Assembly (NCBI GenBank): GCA_015489415.1
Contig: WFZT01000117.1
Coordinates: forward strand, 1 to 35,432
DNA from: Caldifarciminota bacterium
GTDB lineage: Bacteria; Hydrothermota; Hydrothermia; B15-G9; WFZT01
Reading direction: 5' to 3'
Length of the DNA: 35,432 nt
Shown: positions 3,366 to 26,525 of the stretch, piece after piece
Layout of the letters: the number at the start of each line of letters is the position of its first letter
Position numbering within the stretch: position 1 is the first letter of the stretch
The notes under the pieces: generated by a model
Seen by the model: only the letters and a program-made list of their open reading frames with translations
Told to the model about the DNA's origin: nothing
The model's database searches: none
Position numbers and translations under genes: made by a program

Positions 3366-3394
3366 ATTATATTTGAAAACCCTCAAAATGTCGC
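3366..3394 (-). promoter_or_regulatory. purL promoter, predicted leaderless
   Basis: On the minus strand a -35-like GCGACA (3389-3394), a 17-base spacer and a consensus TATAAT (3366-3371) end 6 bases before the purL ATG. Transcription would start at or within one base of the start codon, which agrees with the missing Shine-Dalgarno. Confidence 0.6.
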
Positions 3395-3444: not shown

Positions 3445-4746
3445 TTAATTCGTCCTTGTTGGGACTCCCATGACTCTTAGACATCTTGTTTCTGTCGTAT
3501 CAGAATCACCTGTAATTGATCCCTCCCACATGTGATAAGAATGTACACCATTTCGCAATCCCCTGATGTCCACCGAGAAATACCAGTAGTTCAATTTCTC
3601 AAGGTCGTTATGATAGAGAATCTCTATATCATGTTGACTCAGGGCTCTATTGTAGATTTTTACCTCATCCAACCTGCCGTCATAAAAATACCAGGGATTT
3701 CGGTTTAGCATCTCTGATCCCAGCATGAGAGAGTGTGGAAATCTGGGGAATCCGTGTAAAGGAAGGCTTGCGACCAGAGTGCCGTTCAAATATAACCTGA
3801 CATACTCACCATCGTATGTCCCGGTAATAAAATACCAATGCCTTCTGGATAGCATTCGTTCCGGAATTTTCACATGAGCTTCAGCATCATAGGTTGTCAC
3901 ATCCATTACAAGGGCCCTTTGAACCTTACTAAGATAAAAATTATACGGACGAAGACTGGAATATATGACTCCTGCAAAATCCCTATCAAGCTCACCGGGT
4001 AAAGAATTTAAGTAAATCCAGAAGGCAACCGTGAATTGTTTAAATGGGTCCTCGCGATTTAAATTCTTAAATCCATAGATTTTGCTGTTACAGCCACCGG
4101 GGTCATTTAATATATAAAAAATTCTATGAATATCATCATAATCCAGACCTTCATTCAGACCCTCCTGCACCCTTCCTACAACAGTTCCATCCTTTTTCAC
4201 CTTCCATACAAGATTATCATAGCCGGAAACCAGATACAGGAAGTGCCCATCGTGCGTAATTCCTTGAATAAATTTCACTGCGTTGGAAAGATTTATTCTT
4301 CCAATATAGTGGAAATCTCTCATCGAGTATTTAAAAATGTGACGGGAATCGCAAAAACTCGTAACGTAGAAAGCATCTTCATCTGGGACGACTGTTAAGG
4401 ATGAAACTTCGTGTTTGTATCTCGACACATCATGACAACCCAAAAATTCGAGACTTGCTGCTTTCCACACACATATCTTCGATGGAAGGTATGAGTTGCA
4501 ACTATGGAAATTATCCGCGACGACGTAAAGATACCCGTTATAATAATCCCCATCTCCCAGATGAGAAACACCGCATTCTTGGTTTACATTGTAATCAGCT
4601 CCTACAAGCTCCCAATCCTTAGTATATTTCAGTATTGCGTTGTTGTGAAACACGTAAAAATAATTTCCGTCAGTTGCAATACCCTGGTGTGCATGAATAA
4701 CTGGAGATTCTGAAACCTGTTTAAAAGAGAATAGACCTTTCTGCAA
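3445..4746 (-). CDS. C-terminal piece of interrupted LamG/beta-propeller protein
   Basis: The 433-codon piece would start only at a weak TTG (4746), but the frame is open without a stop back to the TGA at 4906-4908, giving 53 more sensible codons. Those codons read as the first part of a LamG (concanavalin A-like) domain (FDYSSYHNNGHIWGR, then FGKSLEFDRGFIKIPD). Then comes a beta-propeller-like stretch of about 220 residues with repeated 'ATDGNYFYVF' / 'THDGHFLYLVSG' type strands. After it the LamG fold resumes (FTVAFWIYLNSLPGE, YFITGTYDGEYVRLYLNG, GRLDEVKIYNRALS). No signal peptide or ribosome site is seen at the TTG, so this is almost certainly the downstream part of the gene whose start is at 5811, not an independent gene. 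Confidence 0.6.
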   Translation of the reverse strand: MQKGLFSFKQVSESPVIHAHQGIATDGNYFYVFHNNAILKYTKDWELVGADYNVNQECGVSHLGDGDYYNGYLYVVADNFHSCNSYLPSKICVWKAASLEFLGCHDVSRYKHEVSSLTVVPDEDAFYVTSFCDSRHIFKYSMRDFHYIGRINLSNAVKFIQGITHDGHFLYLVSGYDNLVWKVKKDGTVVGRVQEGLNEGLDYDDIHRIFYILNDPGGCNSKIYGFKNLNREDPFKQFTVAFWIYLNSLPGELDRDFAGVIYSSLRPYNFYLSKVQRALVMDVTTYDAEAHVKIPERMLSRRHWYFITGTYDGEYVRLYLNGTLVASLPLHGFPRFPHSLMLGSEMLNRNPWYFYDGRLDEVKIYNRALSQHDIEILYHNDLEKLNYWYFSVDIRGLRNGVHSYHMWEGSITGDSDTTETRCLRVMGVPTRTN

Positions 4747-4905
4747 ATCTGGTATCTTTATAAATCCCCTGTCAAACTCTAAAGATTTTCCAAAAATTCC
4801 GTTACATTCATAGACTCTCCCCCAAATGTGCCCGTTATTATGATAAGACGAGTAGTCAAAAACGATTTTATCAAATCTATCACCGTAATTTTCTCCGAGA
4901 TAATT

Positions 4906-5811
4906 TCAGTTCTCAAAGCTGTACGAGAGTAACAGGTTCATGTCAGATGGATTTGTGTATAAAATAGCCTTTTGGGCGTCTAAAACGCAGTTTATTTTAT
5001 CAACAAAGTTTGACCCACTATAGAAATTCAAAATTTCCTGCCTATCAAGCCGAATATTCATGGAATCCCAGAGAATCCCTACGTTGTCAAGATGCTCGTC
5101 CTTAATTCTTGATCTAATTGTAACTGTATTTCTAAGGATATAAGCATTGTTCCGTGGCGTTGGATAAATGAATACGATTTTCCTGGATTTAAAATCCTTA
5201 TCGACAGGTCTTCCTTTCTGGACGCCAACGTTTGATTTGACGACTTTAACAGTGATCACGCTATCCAAACAACCAACCACTAAGGTAGTTTCTTCTGGCG
5301 TAACAAGAAAAACCTCGGAATGCGAATCAAACCTAAAGTGAACTTTACACGGCAAATTGTCCGATGGTTTTAGAAGCAGATAAGGGGATTTGACACCCTT
5401 AAGATGCAAAAACTTATATACATGCCCGTCCATTTTAAGGAAATAAACTCCCGGTGATAAGGAAAAATTCAGAATACCAGGGCCTGGCCCTAAAACCCTG
5501 CCTTTTATGGGTATCTCCCGACCTGTGATGTCATAGATAGAAATGGAATCACCATGGGATGAGTATGCCAATACCTGGCGTAATTCATATTTCCCGGAGA
5601 ACGCAGACTCCTGGCACTCACATACTTTACGCCTTTTTAATTCTATTTCTCCTTGAAAATTAGTGGTATCTTCAAATGCTGAATCCCCGTATCGAATATT
5701 CAAAGTTAAATGTGGAATTTGATTGTCTCTTTGATCCAAGATCCTGATCTTTATAGTCTGGTGGGGATGATTAAGGCACAAGAGTATAAAGATAAAAACA
5801 ATTTTCCCCAT
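4906..5811 (-). CDS. N-terminal piece of interrupted secreted LamG protein
   Basis: A 301-codon frame beginning with a signal peptide (MGKIVFIFILLCLNHPH) and probably exported. Residues about 19-62 look like a small beta-sandwich (carboxypeptidase-regulatory-like). Residues about 90-140 resemble a type IX-style sorting-tail fold placed internally (SISIYDITGREI and then GVYFLKMDG). The rest is unrecognised until the end, where MNLLLSYSFEN is the first strand of a LamG domain. That domain is cut by the TGA at 4906-4908 and resumes in the same frame. The ATG follows the trmI stop immediately, with AAGGAG very close upstream, so it is translationally coupled to the rib/trmI operon. Confidence 0.6.
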   Translation of the reverse strand: MGKIVFIFILLCLNHPHQTIKIRILDQRDNQIPHLTLNIRYGDSAFEDTTNFQGEIELKRRKVCECQESAFSGKYELRQVLAYSSHGDSISIYDITGREIPIKGRVLGPGPGILNFSLSPGVYFLKMDGHVYKFLHLKGVKSPYLLLKPSDNLPCKVHFRFDSHSEVFLVTPEETTLVVGCLDSVITVKVVKSNVGVQKGRPVDKDFKSRKIVFIYPTPRNNAYILRNTVTIRSRIKDEHLDNVGILWDSMNIRLDRQEILNFYSGSNFVDKINCVLDAQKAILYTNPSDMNLLLSYSFEN

Positions 5812-6564
5812 TCACTCCTTTTTGATATTCCAGGCAAACGTTAAATACCCGGTATGGGAAACCATTCGTTCCCTCGGACGGGTCTTGCCGGGTCTTACGA
5901 GCATCTCGCGCTCAAGGATTTCCACACACTTGAGCCTTATAAACCCCACATCCTTCAAAGCCTCGTGGGTCTTCTGAACCTGCTCAATGGTTGGGGAAAG
6001 TGAAACCCACACATGCCCGGGCTTCAAAACCTTGTAAACTGGCTCAACCAGCGTCCAGGGCTCGGGAACATCAATAAATGCAGCATCCACAGGCTCAATG
6101 TTGAAGCCCTCAACCACCGGGTCCCTGTGATGAAATTCGACCCTATGGTCAAGACCAGCATCCTTTACATTTTTTATGGCATTATTGAAAAACTCTTCGC
6201 GTCTTTCAAAGGTATAGACCTTCCCTTCATCTCCCACAATGGTCGCAAGAATTATAGTCAATGCTCCTGAGCCTGTCCCGGTCTCAAGCACCTTTGAACC
6301 TGCTCCGATACCCGTTTCAACTATCATATACCCGGCATCCTTTGGGTAAATGATGGTGGTCGTCCTTTTTACCCTCATGGAAATTTCGCGTGTGGTTGGG
6401 AAAAGAACGTAGAAAGATTTTCCGAGGTGTGTTTCAAGCCTTTTGCCAAATTCTATTTTTTCAGGCAGGGTAAGAACCCCTAAATGGGTCTGTATTTTCC
6501 TACCGGGCTCAAATTTTACAAGATATTCGGCCTTTTTGCCCCCGTATAAAAGTATTTTGTCCAC
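5812..6564 (-). CDS. trmI: tRNA (adenine-N1)-methyltransferase, TrmI family
   Basis: A 250-residue SAM-dependent methyltransferase of the TrmI/Trm61 family, which makes m1A58 (and in some lineages m1A57/58) in the T loop of tRNA. An N-terminal beta domain (FEPGRKIQTHLG) is followed by the Rossmann fold with motif I VLETGTGSGALT near 90-101, the acidic motif YTFERREEF, and the IDVPEPW motif (the family has DxPxPW) in the catalytic region. The C-terminal SHTGYLTFAW is family-typical. The start is GTG, 1 base past the ribH TGA, with no strong ribosome site, so translation is likely coupled to ribH. m1A58 is important for tRNA stability in thermophiles, which fits the suspected lifestyle but does not prove it. 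Confidence 0.93.
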   Translation of the reverse strand: MDKILLYGGKKAEYLVKFEPGRKIQTHLGVLTLPEKIEFGKRLETHLGKSFYVLFPTTREISMRVKRTTTIIYPKDAGYMIVETGIGAGSKVLETGTGSGALTIILATIVGDEGKVYTFERREEFFNNAIKNVKDAGLDHRVEFHHRDPVVEGFNIEPVDAAFIDVPEPWTLVEPVYKVLKPGHVWVSLSPTIEQVQKTHEALKDVGFIRLKCVEILEREMLVRPGKTRPRERMVSHTGYLTFAWNIKKE

Positions 6565-7027: not shown

Positions 7028-8276
7028 TTTTCTTCTCCTTTACAACCTTAAAGCCACCCCTCTTTTCGATCTCTCCGAGCAGATGGCCCAGTTTATCCCT
7101 TTTAACCTTAAGGTAAAACAAATTCACGTCGTTGGGCTCAATTATGAGAGGAACACGCTCCACAACCTTTAGCCCGTATCCTTCAAGCCCTACGATTTTC
7201 CTTGGATTATTTGTAATCAACCTGATTGTCGAAAGACCCAGATCTACGAGAATCTGAGCACCTATACCATAGTCTCTCAGGTCCGGTGGGAATCCAAGCT
7301 TTTCATTGGCCTCTACAGTGTCGTATCCCATATCCTGGAGCTCATAGGCCTTGAGTTTGTTAACCAGCCCAATGCCCCTTCCTTCCTGTCTCATGTAAAG
7401 AAGCACTCCAAGACCTTCTTTATCAATCATCTGCATGGCAGTGTGAAGCTGGTCTCCGCAGTCACATCTGAGGGAGCCAAAAACGTCTCCTGTGAGGCAT
7501 TCGCTATGAACCCTGACGAGCACGTTTTGCTTGCCCCTGACGTCTCCTTTTACAAGTGCCACATGAACCTCACCGGTGATAATATCCTGGTAGGCATGCA
7601 GTCTGAAATGGCCATACTTTGTGGGGAGGTTGGTCTCTGCCACCTTTTTGACAAGTTTTTCTCTCTGGATGCGGTAATGGATCAGGTCCCGAATGCTGAT
7701 GATCTTCATGTTGAATTTTTTAGCAAGTTCCACCAGCTTGGGTAATCTTGCCATGTGGCCATCGTCATCCAGAATCTCGCAGATGACTCCTGCAGGTTTC
7801 AGGCCAGCAAGCCTTGCAAGGTCAATGGATGCCTCTGTATGGCCAGCACGACGTAAAACCCCACCCTCCTTGCCCATGAGTGTATAGACATGACCTGGCC
7901 TTGCGAAATCATTAGGTCCCTTGGACGGATCAACTGCTTGAAGGATGGTAATTGCCCTATCAAATGCCGAAGAACCAGTGGTGGTGCCACTTTTGGCATC
8001 AATCGGTATCCCAAAGTTTGTTCCGTGCTTTGACGTATTTGTAAGGGGCATATCCAACTCGAGTTCGTGGAAACGCTTCTCATCAAGAGCAAGGCAGATC
8101 AGGCCTCTTCCGTGGGTTGCCATAAAGTTGATGATCTCCGGTGTTATCTTTTCAGCGGCTGCGACAAAATCACCTTCGTTTTCGCGGTCTTCGTCATCCA
8201 CAACGATGACCATCTTTCCTTTTTTTATATCTTCAATGGCTTCTTCAACTGGTGAAAAAATCTTCTCTTTCTCCAT
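7020..8276 (-). CDS. ribBA: Bifunctional DHBP synthase / GTP cyclohydrolase II
   Basis: A 418-residue fusion that starts both branches of riboflavin synthesis. The N-terminal RibB half has the acidic metal/substrate site [10 protein letters not shown] (residues 27-36) and the [10 protein letters not shown] and [11 protein letters not shown] segments. The C-terminal RibA half begins near 207 and has the zinc cysteines of [18 protein letters not shown], then RQEGRGIGL and [15 protein letters not shown]. Both halves keep their catalytic motifs, so both activities are expected. GAGGTAA lies about seven bases before the ATG. It is the first gene of the ribBA-ribH-trmI-LamG operon. I see no FMN riboswitch in the short leader. 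Confidence 0.97.
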
Positions 8277-12512: not shown

Positions 12513-12736
12513 TACCAATTGGGAATCATCCTAAAATCTCCTCTTTATACAAAACGATGTATAAGACCGAAATATTGCTCACCCATTCCACCCCAGCCCT
12601 TCCTTCCCAGAGGGAAGGGAGGGAGCTTCTGAAGACCACTCCTTCACGAATCTTAGACCATTTACCCGGGAAAACCTTAAATTTCCCCTCCTTCCCTTCG
12701 GGAAGGAGGGGTTAGGGGAGAATGGGGTCGGTATAA
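12513..12736. other. Convergent spacer with two hairpins
   Basis: Lies between the ends of the DapA-like gene (+) and carB (-), so a bidirectional termination zone would be expected. No gene is seen. It holds a 7-bp hairpin CCTTCCC/AGA/GGGAAGG near 12609-12625 and the perfect 12-bp hairpin listed at 12685-12711. Neither has a clear T-run. Confidence 0.6.
12685..12711. repeat. 12-bp perfect hairpin, TTC loop
   Basis: CCCCTCCTTCCC, loop TTC, GGGAAGGAGGGG. It is very stable but lacks a T-run on either side. It belongs to the class of GC-rich three-base-loop hairpins scattered in the spacers of this window. It may act as a terminator for carB or the DapA-like gene. Confidence 0.7.
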
Positions 12737-15988: not shown

Positions 15989-16018
15989 ATTATACGATAA
16001 ACTCTTTCATAATTTCAC
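15989..16018 (-). promoter_or_regulatory. carB promoter, predicted leaderless or nearly so
   Basis: On the minus strand GTGAAA (16013-16018), 18 bases, then TATAAT (15989-15994), which ends 9 bases before the GTG start. The expected 5' leader is 0-3 bases. It overlaps the end of the upstream receptor gene. Confidence 0.55.
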
Positions 16019-17815
16019 CGAAAGGCCAAAGGTGGGCACGGGGAAATTAATGGCTGATGGGCTACTATTCTTTGAAAGAAGGTTATAAATCCCTATGTAA
16101 AGCGAAGATTGATGAGAGCGGATTCTAAGGTTCCGCATTAGTAAGACATCCAGCCTGAAAAAACCCGGTTCCTTCTGTCCCTTAAGGAAAAATAGTTCCA
16201 TCCTCTGAACAAGTCTCATGACCCAATAGGTTTTTTCATTCCACCTCTTTGAAACCATAAGATCAAGATTTAGACCAAAATCTTTATCTGGCCGAAACGA
16301 GTGCATGCCCCAGATGCTTAATGCCAGACCTGATCTTTCTCCAACCATTCTCTGAAATTTACCATAGAATCCGAATCCAACCAGACTATCATCTATATTG
16401 TGTCTAAAAAACATCCTCATATTACCAAAACCTGTCACAAGGTAAAATGTGCGTCCAGTGGTGTCAGGATTTAAAGACAAGGCATCCTTGTTTTTGACAA
16501 GTTTAAAAAACTGGTTTGTAACGCCCGTGGAAATGTAGAACATTTTATAGGAAAAGTAATTTAAACGAAGTTTGATGCCAGGAGATGAGTTTTTTAGCAG
16601 TCCACTTGTGTCAGTTATCGTGCTAATTGGATCAATTAGAATCCTCTTGTAAACGATGAAATCAAGGTATGGCTGCAGTATTACTGACCCCGTAGCAATG
16701 TCAAACCATGCTCGAGAGAAAAGCGAATTTCTACTGAATTCAAAAGTCACTTTGGAAGGATTGGCAGTGCCAAAAATAGTGGCTATAGACTTTTGCATTT
16801 CATTAACCAGGTTTAATCGGAGATGGAAACGTTTATATTGAGTGTTAATACCCAGTAAAACTACGCGAATGTTGTCTGACTTCTCAGGTTGCTTATGACT
16901 GTAAAATCCACCAGCCAGGTAAACCGTGTATTTACTGTGACTCATCTTGAATCCAAAATCTGAGATTTTAGTATTGGATGGAACAATGTCTTTGCCTCTC
17001 TTTGAAATAATTTCTGCCATTCCAAAGAATGTAAGAGTTCTATTTGTTGAGATATTTTTACTGAAAATATCCACATGATGGATATCCATGCCGCCTTTGG
17101 ATAAAAGCTTCAGCGCAGGATAGAGAGTATAGAATTCAATCCCCCATCCTTTCATTGGAGAAATATTTGAGTAAGCAATTGACCCAAAGGGATCAAAATA
17201 CAGCTTTTTATTCCTGGTGTCAGCAGGTAGCCTAATATCAAGATGGGAAGATAAAGTCCATCCGATATTAAGGGGAATATCCAATAAGTAGAAGGACATC
17301 TGTTTAACAAGTGGCAATGGTACAAGAGAATGAGGATATTCTTGAAAAACCGGTACGGGTACACCTTCGATAGAAACTATATTTTCATCGGGACGTCCAA
17401 GAGCCGCAGAGTACTTGAGATTAAACTTCACCATTTCGTCACATACAACAAAGGGAAGTGACCTTGTCATTAGTAACGGATCGTGGAATAGAGGGGTGGG
17501 CTGAAGGGCATATTCCGTGTGACTGAAAGTCAGAAACGACCTTGAGCCCACTCTTGGAGTTGAAATAACTGAATCCACCCGATATAAGGGAAGGTGCAGC
17601 AAGATAATTGTATCAGTCGTGCCAACATAAACCGTTGTATCCAGCTCGGGGAATCCATACCCTTTTACTAAAATTTCATGTCTCCCAGGTAAAAGCTTTA
17701 CAGGCACACATGACTGATCACTTAAAAGATGGGCCACTGAATCCACCTTGATCATTCCATCGACAGGTGTTCCAAAGCATATTTTCAATGCCAATAATAC
17801 GTGAATTAGTGACAT
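16007..17815 (-). CDS. TonB-receptor-like outer-membrane protein, paralog 2
   Basis: A 602-residue protein with a short signal peptide. Next comes a PEGA/carboxypeptidase-like small domain (LLPGRHEILVKGYGFPELDT) at about 20-70. Then comes a plug-like region (SAALGRPDENIVSIEGVP, then PLPLVKQMSFY) and a long stretch of alternating beta strands ending in a terminal SVKL, as expected for an outer-membrane barrel. At about 600 residues it is shorter than most TonB-dependent receptors. It is clearly a paralog of the gene at 17826-19649, with the same block order and the same motifs, and follows it by 10 bases with no ribosome site of its own. The ligand is unknown. No TonB box is recognised. Confidence 0.7.
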   Translation of the reverse strand: MSLIHVLLALKICFGTPVDGMIKVDSVAHLLSDQSCVPVKLLPGRHEILVKGYGFPELDTTVYVGTTDTIILLHLPLYRVDSVISTPRVGSRSFLTFSHTEYALQPTPLFHDPLLMTRSLPFVVCDEMVKFNLKYSAALGRPDENIVSIEGVPVPVFQEYPHSLVPLPLVKQMSFYLLDIPLNIGWTLSSHLDIRLPADTRNKKLYFDPFGSIAYSNISPMKGWGIEFYTLYPALKLLSKGGMDIHHVDIFSKNISTNRTLTFFGMAEIISKRGKDIVPSNTKISDFGFKMSHSKYTVYLAGGFYSHKQPEKSDNIRVVLLGINTQYKRFHLRLNLVNEMQKSIATIFGTANPSKVTFEFSRNSLFSRAWFDIATGSVILQPYLDFIVYKRILIDPISTITDTSGLLKNSSPGIKLRLNYFSYKMFYISTGVTNQFFKLVKNKDALSLNPDTTGRTFYLVTGFGNMRMFFRHNIDDSLVGFGFYGKFQRMVGERSGLALSIWGMHSFRPDKDFGLNLDLMVSKRWNEKTYWVMRLVQRMELFFLKGQKEPGFFRLDVLLMRNLRIRSHQSSLYIGIYNLLSKNSSPSAINFPVPTFGLSVKL

Positions 17816-17825
17816 CGGCAGATAT

Positions 17826-19649
17826 CTACAATTTAACCTCCAGACTCAACATAGGAATGGGATAATTTATTGAGCCAGGATTGGGTTTTTTAGAAAGTAA
17901 GTTAAAAACACCCATGTAAAGCGTCGCTGGATGCCCCTTCAAATGGAAGTTTTTTGTAACCATTATATCAGTCCTGAAGTATGGGGCCTCACTCCCTCCT
18001 TTAAATAGATGGAGCGGAAATCTTTTGGTAATTCTCATGGTCAAATGTGTACTATTATTCCACCGGTGTAACAAAAAAGCATCAACATTTAAGCCATAGT
18101 TCCATGGCGGAACATACGAATACATTCCCCAAATACCAGCCTGAAGTTTTGTCCTCCTGCTTAACCCCCAGTTAAATTTCTGATACACTCCAAAACCTCT
18201 TGTGGAATCAGTAATGTCTCTTCTATAAAAGAAATAGAGCGACATGTCTTTCGTTTTCATATTTAGAATACCATACGCAATGCGGGAAAATTTGTCACAT
18301 CTTCTCTGAAAGGGGTCATATTCTTTTATGAGTGCAAAGAATTGATTGGTTATACCAGATGAAAGGTAAATTTTCATCGGAGATGAAAAATCAAGAGACA
18401 ATTTTATCCCGGGATAGAAGGAATCGAACTCAATAGTCGAATCTCTTTTCATAAATGCACTTCGATAGGACATTTTATAAAAAATGCCGTCTATGTAGGG
18501 CTTAACTGAGAGATTCCATAATTTTTCATTTTCCCATACCCTTAAAAACACGGAATTTCTCTTGTACATACCAGTTTCAGTAATCTCACCTGAAGGAGTG
18601 CCTACAAGCTCAGTGTGTTTGTAAAATTCACCCACAAAATTTGTCCTGATAGAGAGCAAGCCCGAATTGTAGTGAACACCGGCAACATAGTTGTAGGCTT
18701 TTTCGATTAAAATATATTGATCACGGTTATAAAAACCCACAGCGAGATAATATGTGAGGTTATTCCTGGATAGTTTTACACCCGCATCAAAAATTTTTGT
18801 AGCTTCAGGTTCAAGAATACCTTTAAGGGAAGAAACCTCTGCTAAAGTAAAACCTGAGAATACAGCGTTTTTATACGATCTTTTCAAAAAGAGGTCCAGA
18901 TGAGTTACGTTACCTTTTCCTTTTGAAAGTAGCAGAATGACCGGAGTAAGACTATACACCTGAATACCATAGGCGTAGTAGGATTTCCCGTTTGTTAAGC
19001 TAAAAGTTCCAAATGGATCAATATAAAGAACCTTCTCTCTTTTACTCCCTGGTAACTGGACATTCACTTGAGAGGACACTGACCACCCATTTTCAAGAGG
19101 AATGTCAAGGAGTGAAAACTCCATGTCCCTGATAAGAGGCAAAGGAACGAGAGGACGTGGATAAACTGGAAATACAAGCAAAGGTATTCCATCTATTAAA
19201 AGAGCGTTCTCATCAGGATGCCCCAGTGCCGCTGAATAATCAAGGTCATTATTCTCAATTTCATCGTAAGGTGACACAAGGACAAAAGGAAGATATTTGG
19301 CCACCAGAACCGGATCGTGAAACATTGGAACAGGGGTCAGCGATAAATTTTTGCGGCTCAAATCGAAATTACCCCCTCCACTCCCTCTCGTCGATACTGT
19401 TACCACAGAATCAACGTGATAAATTTCTGGAACAAGTAAAATACTGTCACCTTTAAAGAGAGTGTCCACTTTCTGATAACCATACGCTAATAGCTCTACT
19501 CGGTGCCATCCAGAGGGTATATTCACGCGAATACATGAATCATTTTCCAATCTGTACACTTTCCCATCAATTTTCACAATACCTTTATTAACTCCAGCAC
19601 AACATACGGTAAAAGTCAATAAAAATTGAAACAGCAGGCTACTTATCAT
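17826..19649 (-). CDS. TonB-receptor-like outer-membrane protein, paralog 1
   Basis: A 607-residue protein with the same plan as its downstream paralog: signal peptide (MISSLLFQFLLTFTVCCAG), a PEGA-like domain (VNIPSGWHRVELLAYGYQK), a serine/glycine patch (VSTRGSGGGNF) that may be a TonB-box/linker region, a plug-like block (SAALGHPDENALLIDGIP, PLPLIRDMEFSLLDIP) and a barrel-like C-terminal half ending SLEVKL. The paralogs align over their whole length by eye, so the pair arose by tandem duplication and has since diverged clearly. It follows the lipoprotein gene by 5 bases, so the three genes form one operon. The transported substrate cannot be inferred. Confidence 0.7.
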   Translation of the reverse strand: MISSLLFQFLLTFTVCCAGVNKGIVKIDGKVYRLENDSCIRVNIPSGWHRVELLAYGYQKVDTLFKGDSILLVPEIYHVDSVVTVSTRGSGGGNFDLSRKNLSLTPVPMFHDPVLVAKYLPFVLVSPYDEIENNDLDYSAALGHPDENALLIDGIPLLVFPVYPRPLVPLPLIRDMEFSLLDIPLENGWSVSSQVNVQLPGSKREKVLYIDPFGTFSLTNGKSYYAYGIQVYSLTPVILLLSKGKGNVTHLDLFLKRSYKNAVFSGFTLAEVSSLKGILEPEATKIFDAGVKLSRNNLTYYLAVGFYNRDQYILIEKAYNYVAGVHYNSGLLSIRTNFVGEFYKHTELVGTPSGEITETGMYKRNSVFLRVWENEKLWNLSVKPYIDGIFYKMSYRSAFMKRDSTIEFDSFYPGIKLSLDFSSPMKIYLSSGITNQFFALIKEYDPFQRRCDKFSRIAYGILNMKTKDMSLYFFYRRDITDSTRGFGVYQKFNWGLSRRTKLQAGIWGMYSYVPPWNYGLNVDAFLLHRWNNSTHLTMRITKRFPLHLFKGGSEAPYFRTDIMVTKNFHLKGHPATLYMGVFNLLSKKPNPGSINYPIPMLSLEVKL

Positions 19650-19654
19650 AATTG

Positions 19655-20626
19655 CTATCGAGCGAAAGGAATATCAACATACACCCATGCCCTGAAATTG
19701 GATTGATAAGTATAAAATAATCCTAAACAACAAGTTCTAAAATATCCCACATAGTCATCCCCACCCCTGAAAGGACCATCATCCTCCATGATAATGTATT
19801 CAAACGTATCTGAAACAACGGAATGATAATAAACTCTCCTATAAAATCCTTCCCAATAATTGCAGTGATTATCATTGCAGCAACTTGGATACCATATGTT
19901 AGGTTGGTTAACTTCTGTAAAATCGGTTATATCTACTTCAGGCCTACCCACATTTTTCACTTTTACATAAATCTCCATATCATTACATCCAAAAAACAGA
20001 ACTGGATCGTAGCATCTGCCAATGTATAGACCTTCAATAAATGGAATTAACCAGAAATTCTGTAAATTCTCTCTGTCTCGAGAATCCCCTATCTTCTCCA
20101 AAGAAATCAATGGTACAGTGTCTCCTTCCCACCACTCTGGAGATAATACCACTATCGGGTACTTATTAAAATCATCTACAGGAATAGTTTTTACTACCTT
20201 TCCGTTTTTGTATAAGGGGATTTCTTTTATCATTTCCTCATCAATCATAGGATCGAATGTGAAATATGGTTCCACTTCGTCTTTTTCCCACATGGTGAAC
20301 CATTCATTTCGAATGAAGAGGATGAAAGAATCATTCGGTAAGACCGTTTTAATATCATTAACAGGCACACCATTACGGATTAAATAATTTCTCACTTTAT
20401 CAAAAGAAACCTTTCTTTCGGTACCTATATCAGTAAGATAAAACATCTTACGAATTTCTTTACTGCGTATCGTAGCAATTGACAACTCTCGAGTTATTGA
20501 ATCAAGCATAGAATAAACAATCCTGTATGTTTTATCCTCTTTATAGCTATCATTCACGAATTTCCCACCTTTATCGCATGATACATTTATCATGATAACC
20601 ATCAATATTAGAACTAACTTTTTCAT
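19655..20626 (-). CDS. Predicted lipoprotein, cysteine-rich, unknown family
   Basis: A 323-residue protein with a lipoprotein signal peptide (MKKLVLILMVIMINVSC; lipobox ending in Cys17), so it is probably anchored in the outer or cytoplasmic membrane. I do not recognise the family. The central part is acidic and rich in Trp/Tyr (EPYFTFDPMIDEEM, LSPEWWEGDTVP). The C-terminal third has clustered cysteines (SCCNDNHC and TCCLG) that could form disulfides outside the cytoplasm. The ATG has a strong AAAGGAGGTC and the promoter listed at 20644-20672. It is first in an operon with the two receptor-like barrels, a lipoprotein-plus-receptor layout reminiscent of SusD/SusC, but it is too short and too different to be SusD. 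Confidence 0.65.
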   Translation of the reverse strand: MKKLVLILMVIMINVSCDKGGKFVNDSYKEDKTYRIVYSMLDSITRELSIATIRSKEIRKMFYLTDIGTERKVSFDKVRNYLIRNGVPVNDIKTVLPNDSFILFIRNEWFTMWEKDEVEPYFTFDPMIDEEMIKEIPLYKNGKVVKTIPVDDFNKYPIVVLSPEWWEGDTVPLISLEKIGDSRDRENLQNFWLIPFIEGLYIGRCYDPVLFFGCNDMEIYVKVKNVGRPEVDITDFTEVNQPNIWYPSCCNDNHCNYWEGFYRRVYYHSVVSDTFEYIIMEDDGPFRGGDDYVGYFRTCCLGLFYTYQSNFRAWVYVDIPFAR

Positions 20627-24362: not shown

Positions 24363-26525
24363 ATGGTAAAATTAGTTATTGTAATGGTGCTGGCCTTTGG
24401 CCAGGGGAGTGGTTATGAGGTGAATCATTTGATGCGCAGGTTTAGCCTGCCGGATAGAGCAGGAGCGGGGCTTGAATCCGGGTTTGATTCGCTGAATGTG
24501 AGATTTATCGGTGCATGGCCTTTTGGACCTTCCTATACTATCTCAATAAATGGCAATACAGTATTCCTTGGTTCAGGTGGTGGTGTATACATACTTGATA
24601 TGAGTAATCAAGCGAATCCTCAGAAAATAAGCGAAATAGTGACAAGGGGTTTAGTATTCGACCTGTATTATTCCAGTGGGAAATTATACATAGCGGATGT
24701 AAACGGAGGGCTTGAGATATGGGATGTGAGTGACCCTACTTCACCTCAGAAGTTGAGCTCATATTTTACCCCTGGATTTGCGTCTGGAGTATATGTTACA
24801 GGTGGATATGCTTACGTGACTGAAGGGGGTTCTGGATTAAGGGTGATAGATGTGAGTAATCCCTCCAATCCTCATGAGGTGGGTTATTACGATACCCCTG
24901 GATTGGCAGGAGGGGTATATGTGACAGGAGGATATGCCTATGTGGCTGCAAGTTATGCTGGATTGAGGGTGATAGATGTGAGTAATCCCTCCAATCCTCA
25001 TGAGGTGGGTTATTACGATACCCCTGGATGGGCGGTAGAAGTATATGTAACAGGAGGATATGCCTATGTGGCTGATGATGAGGCTGGATTGAGGGTAATA
25101 GATGTAAGTAATCCAGCCAATCCTCATGAAGTGGGTTATTACGATACTCCTGGATACGCGTATGGAGTACATGTGACAGGTGGATACGCTTATGTGACTG
25201 ATTTAGCTGGATTGAGGGTAATAGATGTAAGTAATCCAGCCAATCCTCATGAAGTGGGTTATTACGATACTCCTGGATGGGCAATAGGAGTATATGTGAT
25301 AGGTGGATACACTTATGTAGCTGATTATTGGGCTGGATTGAGGGTAATAGATGTGAGTAATCCTTACAAACCTCATGAGGTGGGTTATTACAATACTCCT
25401 GGACGTGCATGGGGTATATATGTGATAGGTGGATACGCTTATGTGGCTGATGGTTATGCTGGATTGAGGGTGATAGATGTGAGTAATCCAGCCAATCCTC
25501 ATGAAGTGGGTTATTACGATACTCCTGGATGGGCAATGGGAGTATATGTGATAGATGAATACGCTTATGTGGCTGATTATGGGGCTGGATTGAGAGTGAT
25601 AGATGTGAGTAATCCGGCCAATCCTCAGGAAGTGGGTTATTACGATACTCCTGGATGGGCAATGGGAGTATATGTGACAGGTGGATATGCTTATGTGGCT
25701 GATGGTGGGGGTGGATTGAGGGTGATAGATGTGAGTAATCCAGCCAATCCTCATGAAGTGGGTTATTACAGTACCCCTGGATACGCGATAGAAGTATATG
25801 TAACAGGAGAATATGCTTATGTGGCTGATGATACGGCTGGATTGAGGGTAATAGATGTAAGTAATCCTTACAATCCTCATGAGGTGGGTTATTACAATAC
25901 CCCTGGATATACGTGGGGAGTATATCTTACAGGTGGATATGCTTATGTGGCTGATGGTGGTCTTGGATTGAGGGTGATAGATGTAAGTAATCCAGCCAAT
26001 CCTCATGAGGTGGGTTATTACGATACTCCTGGATGGGCAATGGGAGTATATGTGACAGGTGGATATGCTTATGTGGCTGATGGTGGGGGTGGATTGAGGG
26101 TGATAGATGTAAGTAATCCAGCCAATCCTCATGAGGTGGGTTATTACGATACCCCTGGATATGCGTCTGGAGTATATGTTACAGGTGGATATGCTTATGT
26201 GGCTGATGAATGGGCTGGGCTTCAGATTCATCAGTTTTACGGTGTCTGGGTTGAAGAGGATGGCACACACTCTGTTACTAACCCCTTAAAAATAAAAGTG
26301 AATTCGGTGAGTAGATTTGACATATCTCTTGAGGTTAAGCGTGGTGCGAGGGCTGAGCTTAAACTTTATGATGTAGCAGGAAGACAGGTCTGGAAAGGAT
26401 CCTACAATGCAGGAAGACACCACGTCTCAATTTCCTTACCTACCGGAACCTATTTCATTTACTCAAAAGTCAGGTATTTTAACAGGGTTGCTACTTATAC
26501 CAAAAGATTGATAATTTCGAATTGA
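24363..26525 (+). CDS. Secreted LVIVD-type beta-propeller protein with sorting-like tail
   Basis: A 720-residue exported protein with signal peptide MVKLVIVMVLAFGQG. After a divergent N-terminal part and one degenerate unit (GLEIWDVSDP), 11 near-identical units of 42 residues follow (residues about 159-619), each with LRVIDVSNP, a HEVGYYDTPG turn and VYVTGGYAYVAD. These are LVIVD-type strands that build beta-propeller blades. The last 100 or so residues (LKLYDVAGRQVWKG, then LPTGTYFIYSKV) resemble a type IX-like C-terminal sorting domain. It is likely a surface structural or binding protein. A strong AAAGGAGG precedes the ATG; the promoter is unclear (TAAAAT lies nearby). It sits next to the sigma/anti-sigma operon but has its own transcript. 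Confidence 0.9.
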   Translation: MVKLVIVMVLAFGQGSGYEVNHLMRRFSLPDRAGAGLESGFDSLNVRFIGAWPFGPSYTISINGNTVFLGSGGGVYILDMSNQANPQKISEIVTRGLVFDLYYSSGKLYIADVNGGLEIWDVSDPTSPQKLSSYFTPGFASGVYVTGGYAYVTEGGSGLRVIDVSNPSNPHEVGYYDTPGLAGGVYVTGGYAYVAASYAGLRVIDVSNPSNPHEVGYYDTPGWAVEVYVTGGYAYVADDEAGLRVIDVSNPANPHEVGYYDTPGYAYGVHVTGGYAYVTDLAGLRVIDVSNPANPHEVGYYDTPGWAIGVYVIGGYTYVADYWAGLRVIDVSNPYKPHEVGYYNTPGRAWGIYVIGGYAYVADGYAGLRVIDVSNPANPHEVGYYDTPGWAMGVYVIDEYAYVADYGAGLRVIDVSNPANPQEVGYYDTPGWAMGVYVTGGYAYVADGGGGLRVIDVSNPANPHEVGYYSTPGYAIEVYVTGEYAYVADDTAGLRVIDVSNPYNPHEVGYYNTPGYTWGVYLTGGYAYVADGGLGLRVIDVSNPANPHEVGYYDTPGWAMGVYVTGGYAYVADGGGGLRVIDVSNPANPHEVGYYDTPGYASGVYVTGGYAYVADEWAGLQIHQFYGVWVEEDGTHSVTNPLKIKVNSVSRFDISLEVKRGARAELKLYDVAGRQVWKGSYNAGRHHVSISLPTGTYFIYSKVRYFNRVATYTKRLIISN
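24837..26219 (+). repeat. 11-unit 126-bp tandem repeat array in the propeller gene
   Basis: 11 units of 126 bp (one is 123 bp) with very high DNA identity. Units starting near 25644 and 26022 are almost identical over a full unit and lie exactly 378 bp (three units) apart, which suggests block duplication. Confidence 0.95.

Follow-up and report, generated by a model that had tools for sequence, protein, structure and literature searches.

A lone in-frame TGA in a species-specific surface-protein gene of a Hydrothermota bacterium, most probably a recent nonsense mutation

Why should a gene that otherwise reads as one long secreted protein carry a single TGA in its interior? The question is raised by a locus in the window, which here means the whole 35,432-nucleotide stretch of contig WFZT01000117.1, from a metagenome-assembled genome (MAG) of a Caldifarciminota bacterium, a deep-branching organism. 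On the minus strand, a frame running from 5811 to 3445 consists of 301 codons, a TGA at 4906–4908 (codon 302), another 486 codons and a TAA at 3445–3447, with no further stop. A sequence-only reading had proposed that the open frames 4906–5811 and 3445–4905 are one frame broken only by this TGA, and that the downstream piece has no start of its own; both statements hold. By a codon-usage measure trained on this genome, each piece scores higher in this frame than in the other five; the alternative frames contain 11–47 stops each, and synonymous-codon scores for the two sides of the TGA rank at the 7th and 34th percentile among host genes. The open frame of 486 codons 3′ of the TGA is not a product of chance. 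The 788 codons contain this single stop and nothing that suggests an insertion or deletion. ATG, GTG and TTG are all absent for 53 codons past the TGA, where the first possible restart, a TTG at 4746, lacks a Shine-Dalgarno-like sequence; the first ATG follows 194 codons on. The frame 3445–4746 given by an ORF caller is simply the TTG-trimmed form of 3445–4905.

Splits of this kind are rare in the part of the genome that was scanned. Scanning 610,587 bases, the window included (about 24% of 2.57 Mb), for same-frame splits with at least 150 codons on each side and no ATG, GTG or TTG within 20 codons of the stop gave three cases. One of them, on L109 (stop at 8141), is the antisense shadow of a gene of 501 amino acids, and another, on L106 (stop at 7089), lies inside a region of long minus-strand frames with near-zero synonymous-codon scores. 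Both were rejected, leaving the split in the window as the only convincing case among the 610 kb; the remaining genes of the window are uninterrupted. Open frames of the antisense or shadow type can mimic stop-split genes, which calls for caution in mechanical scans.

The N-terminal part of the encoded protein looks like that of an exported protein. The ATG of the gene lies immediately 3′ of the trmI TGA, AAGGAG at 5815–5820 is a possible ribosome-binding site, and the first residues, MGKIVFIFILLCLNHPHQ (5758–5811, minus strand), form a probable signal peptide, judged by inspection and not by a predictor. Residues 84–127 of the 788 (5431–5562, minus strand) resemble the sorting tail of the type IX secretion system (T9SS). 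This module is just over the NCBIfam cut-off for TIGR04183, the T9SS type A sorting domain (E 4.4e-5, 23.4 bits against a cut-off of 23), and its match to Pfam PF18962 is weak and below the cut-off. In contrast to type A cargo proteins, the module is internal and near the N-terminus rather than at the C-terminus, so that it cannot serve as a sorting tail in the normal way. A literature search for a T9SS in Hydrothermota returned no report of one.

Further along, the TGA falls inside a recognisable domain. As had been suggested from the letters, it splits a LamG domain: LLLSYSFEN is strand 1, and FDYSSYHNNGHIWG, past the TGA, is strand 2, the sequence after the stop reading FDYSSYHNNGHIWG...GKSLEFDRGFIKIPDL. 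Alignment with relatives places the first strands at 4744–4935 (minus strand), broken by the TGA, which sits in the loop between strands 1 and 2. In five relatives from the same phylum the LamG domain is one continuous stretch, with a variable loop at the position of the TGA. The second part of the domain (3625–4044, minus strand) matches positions 16–150 of the Laminin_G_3 profile PF13385 at E 3.5e-20 (73.1 bits against a gathering score of 27.6). Between IPDL and FTVAFWIYL there are about 230 extra residues (4045–4743, minus strand), which have a stand-alone relative on contig C20 of genome G074, from another member of the phylum (L003; E 5e-18 / 1.5e-20). When this segment is removed, the profile match extends to positions 7–150 (76.6 bits) and the LamG sequence can be aligned, as a single domain, with relatives such as L021, so that the TGA is probably not the only interruption of the domain, a nested segment being the other. 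The segment has no Pfam match, and its sequence pattern suggests a propeller. None of the other LamG relatives looked at contains it. Searches against solved structures returned Cas7 at chance level for the propeller-like segment and, for the LamG part, a marginal match to pappalysin-1 (E about 0.05), and AlphaFold2 models made from both pieces without an alignment had a mean pLDDT of 37.5–37.8, too low to test the nested arrangement. Like other Laminin_G_3 or ConA-like lectin domain proteins, this one has a recognisable strand 1, D-x-S-S loop and FDG-like strand; the propeller-like insertion of about 230 residues and the TGA between strands 1 and 2 set it apart. The nesting of a propeller in a LamG domain would be a modest structural curiosity.

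The surroundings of the gene bear on its age. G003, the sister genome, aligns collinearly with the window (93–94% DNA identity on both sides) but lacks the gene: the segment 3395–5827 takes up 2.43 kb here and 21 bp there. In G003, as in the congener G002 (77% DNA identity), trmI adjoins purL, and in G001 trmI is followed by a gene reading as topoisomerase I. At the left edge of the insert the end of trmI is altered: its final codons read WNIKKE here and WKVEKT in G003. Its right edge ends at the −35 element of a promoter-like site of purL (GCGACA, 17 bp, TATAAT, at 3394–3366), which is kept in both G003 and G002. A search of 147 genomes of the phylum found no full-length homologue or orthologue, only matches at the level of the LamG domain, the tail or the propeller-like segment, and no relatives of the downstream piece were found in the named genomes searched. 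The relatives that carry names are MAGs of candidate division WOR-3 / Hydrothermota. Comparison with related genomes, which had been proposed as a check, was thus informative for the locus, where relatives lack the gene, but not from gene to gene, as there is no counterpart. The adjacency of trmI and purL in both congeners makes a recent gain, specific to this species, probable. Since G002 branches outside the sister pair, a gain on the lineage of the window is simpler than two losses, and we infer this direction of change. The G+C content of the gene (0.39–0.40) is at the 8th to 10th percentile of host genes, which is within their range, and is similar to that of other probable surface genes in the window. 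Insertion by a transposon-type element was considered and rejected, as terminal repeats were not seen.

TGA had been called a normal stop here, and it is: it ends 129 of the 269 long ORFs, and RF2 is encoded in the genome, so that a UGA-reassigned code was rejected. No SelB scored over the cut-off in this genome or in 12 relatives; the best hit here covers only model positions 1–332, in an EF-Tu-like frame of 399 residues. Likewise, there is no tRNA-Sec over the cut-off in this genome (97.9% complete), and ARAGORN found no UGA-reading anticodon among 10 tRNAs in 610 kb, about a quarter of the genome. Just downstream of the UGA, which lies in a loop, there is no stable hairpin, and folding compared with shuffled sequences gave a z of −0.8. 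Selenocysteine was therefore rejected as well, and with RF2 present and TGA an ordinary stop, recoding is unsupported. The position of the TGA also lacks simple repeat tracts and inverted or invertible repeats of the kind used in phase variation. Nothing points to a programmed event at this codon.

The earlier reading had listed a nonsense mutation, an on/off state, readthrough and a base error without choosing among them. A recent nonsense mutation fits best: the frame is broken once, nothing suggests a frameshift, both sides retain coding signal, and the sister genome has no gene at this site. Neither readthrough nor phase variation has a supporting signal. We therefore favour, with a probability of roughly 0.6, a recently gained gene for a secreted multi-domain surface protein, in which a single nonsense mutation has produced a very young pseudogene or a segregating null allele. 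An accessory gene encoding a signal peptide, a T9SS-tail-like module and a LamG domain with a nested propeller-like segment would have been gained, and one nonsense mutation would have arisen at codon 302, where RF2 would terminate translation. What remains would be an exported fragment of 301 residues, which keeps the signal peptide and loses the LamG or lectin-like part, and which may be made or degraded. The rest of the frame would stay untranslated, given that no restart site is seen. The gene would then be on its way out, or an intact allele might be kept by a minority of the population. That the base is real, that the full product is not made and that the protein would have had a lectin function are parts of this account that we infer.

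If real, the mutation is young. In this gene, 4.2% of random single substitutions create a stop, and an unconstrained copy should have accumulated about six stops by 6% divergence and about one by 1%. Finding at most one stop is likely only if decay has lasted for some 1–2% divergence or less (the chance is 0.02 at 6%), on an estimate that counts substitutions only and ignores indels and selection. Among young accessory genes, pseudogenes left by failed gene transfer are reported to be common, and accessory gains that fail or prove transient and end as pseudogenes form a known class (reviewed in PMC11078800). The present gene is like nonsense pseudogenes of recently gained accessory genes in its single premature stop, otherwise intact frame and absence from close relatives; it differs in that its relatives are found only at the domain level and that the base is known from a MAG consensus alone.

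This last difference is where the main rival comes in, because an error in a MAG consensus looks identical to a real mutation. If the sequencing or the consensus is wrong at this base, the gene is in truth unbroken and codes for a single secreted protein of 788 residues. The genome is in 289 contigs with 8.2% contamination, and the contig of the nearest relative is labelled with only about 6x coverage. Apart from the TGA the gene looks undamaged, with coding signal on both sides and no second lesion, and a handful of errors per genome could suffice to yield one convincing split in 610 kb. On the other hand, single-nonsense pseudogenes are common among accessory genes, so that no error is needed to account for the data, and the other genes of the window are free of interruptions. 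Weighing these points, a base error seems unlikely, yet of the alternatives it deserves the most attention. A nonsense mutation would also be seen if the stop were one allele of a population-level on/off state, an allele that mutation or recombination removes and restores, leaving the protein to be made in some of the cells. Surface-type gene content does vary among these close relatives, the gene being absent at the locus in both G003 and G002, and one of two tandem genes of about 600 residues elsewhere in the window also appears to be missing from G003. But the stop is not accompanied by a simple-sequence tract or invertible repeat, and so by no known switch for phase variation, nor is there a second copy in the genome with which to recombine. 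Such a state is improbable.

The remaining alternatives leave the TGA in place and have the downstream frame translated anyway. With functional readthrough, ribosomes would insert an amino acid at the UGA often enough to be useful, and the protein would exist in a short and a long version. The intact downstream frame would suit this, and in E. coli reporters no bacterial stop is leakier than UGA (PMC11126739), so that traces of full-length protein might be made; low protein output from pseudogenes is also reported for Salmonella (Feng et al. 2022, as cited in PMC11078800). Against it are the presence of RF2, the lack of SelB and tRNA-Sec above their cut-offs, and RNA folding around the codon that is no better than in shuffles. 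Moreover, the stop lies inside a domain, whereas a product of two forms would be expected to have it between domains. We consider functional readthrough quite improbable, and still more so its specific version, in which a real TGA is kept and, with no selenocysteine system involved, is translated as a sense codon at a rate that is regulated or useful, with a short form and a low-level long form carrying the LamG and propeller-like parts both being secreted. Finally, the downstream piece could be translated alone, as a separate gene or by translational restart. The TTG at 4746 stands at the start of the propeller-like segment, and this segment has the stand-alone relative mentioned above. Yet the TTG lacks a Shine-Dalgarno-like sequence, the piece has no signal peptide, its LamG domain would be incomplete, and the LamG relatives are single continuous frames, so that hardly any weight can be given to this possibility.

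A recent nonsense mutation in a newly gained gene, if that is what happened, would make the locus a small example of how surface-protein genes of WOR-3/Hydrothermota come and go among their housekeeping neighbours as sister species diverge. The case is most likely one of ordinary biology and not a new way of reading genes, and it serves as a warning against taking a lone in-frame TGA in a MAG for recoding. Other features of the window were seen alongside. At 24363–26525 there is a protein of 720 amino acids with 13 matched LVIVD repeats (Pfam E 4e-164) and a weak T9SS-tail-like match at its end. Two related genes lie in tandem at 16007–19649, encoding 602 and 607 amino acids without Pfam matches; contig C65 of G003 appears to retain only the copy of 602 amino acids, and the stretch that spans 17815–20105 in the window is about 0.5 kb there. 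Between a dapA-like gene and carB, at 12549–12727, there is a dispersed repeat of about 150 bp, which occurs in more than 20 partial copies in the 610 kb of this genome and in dozens in G003.
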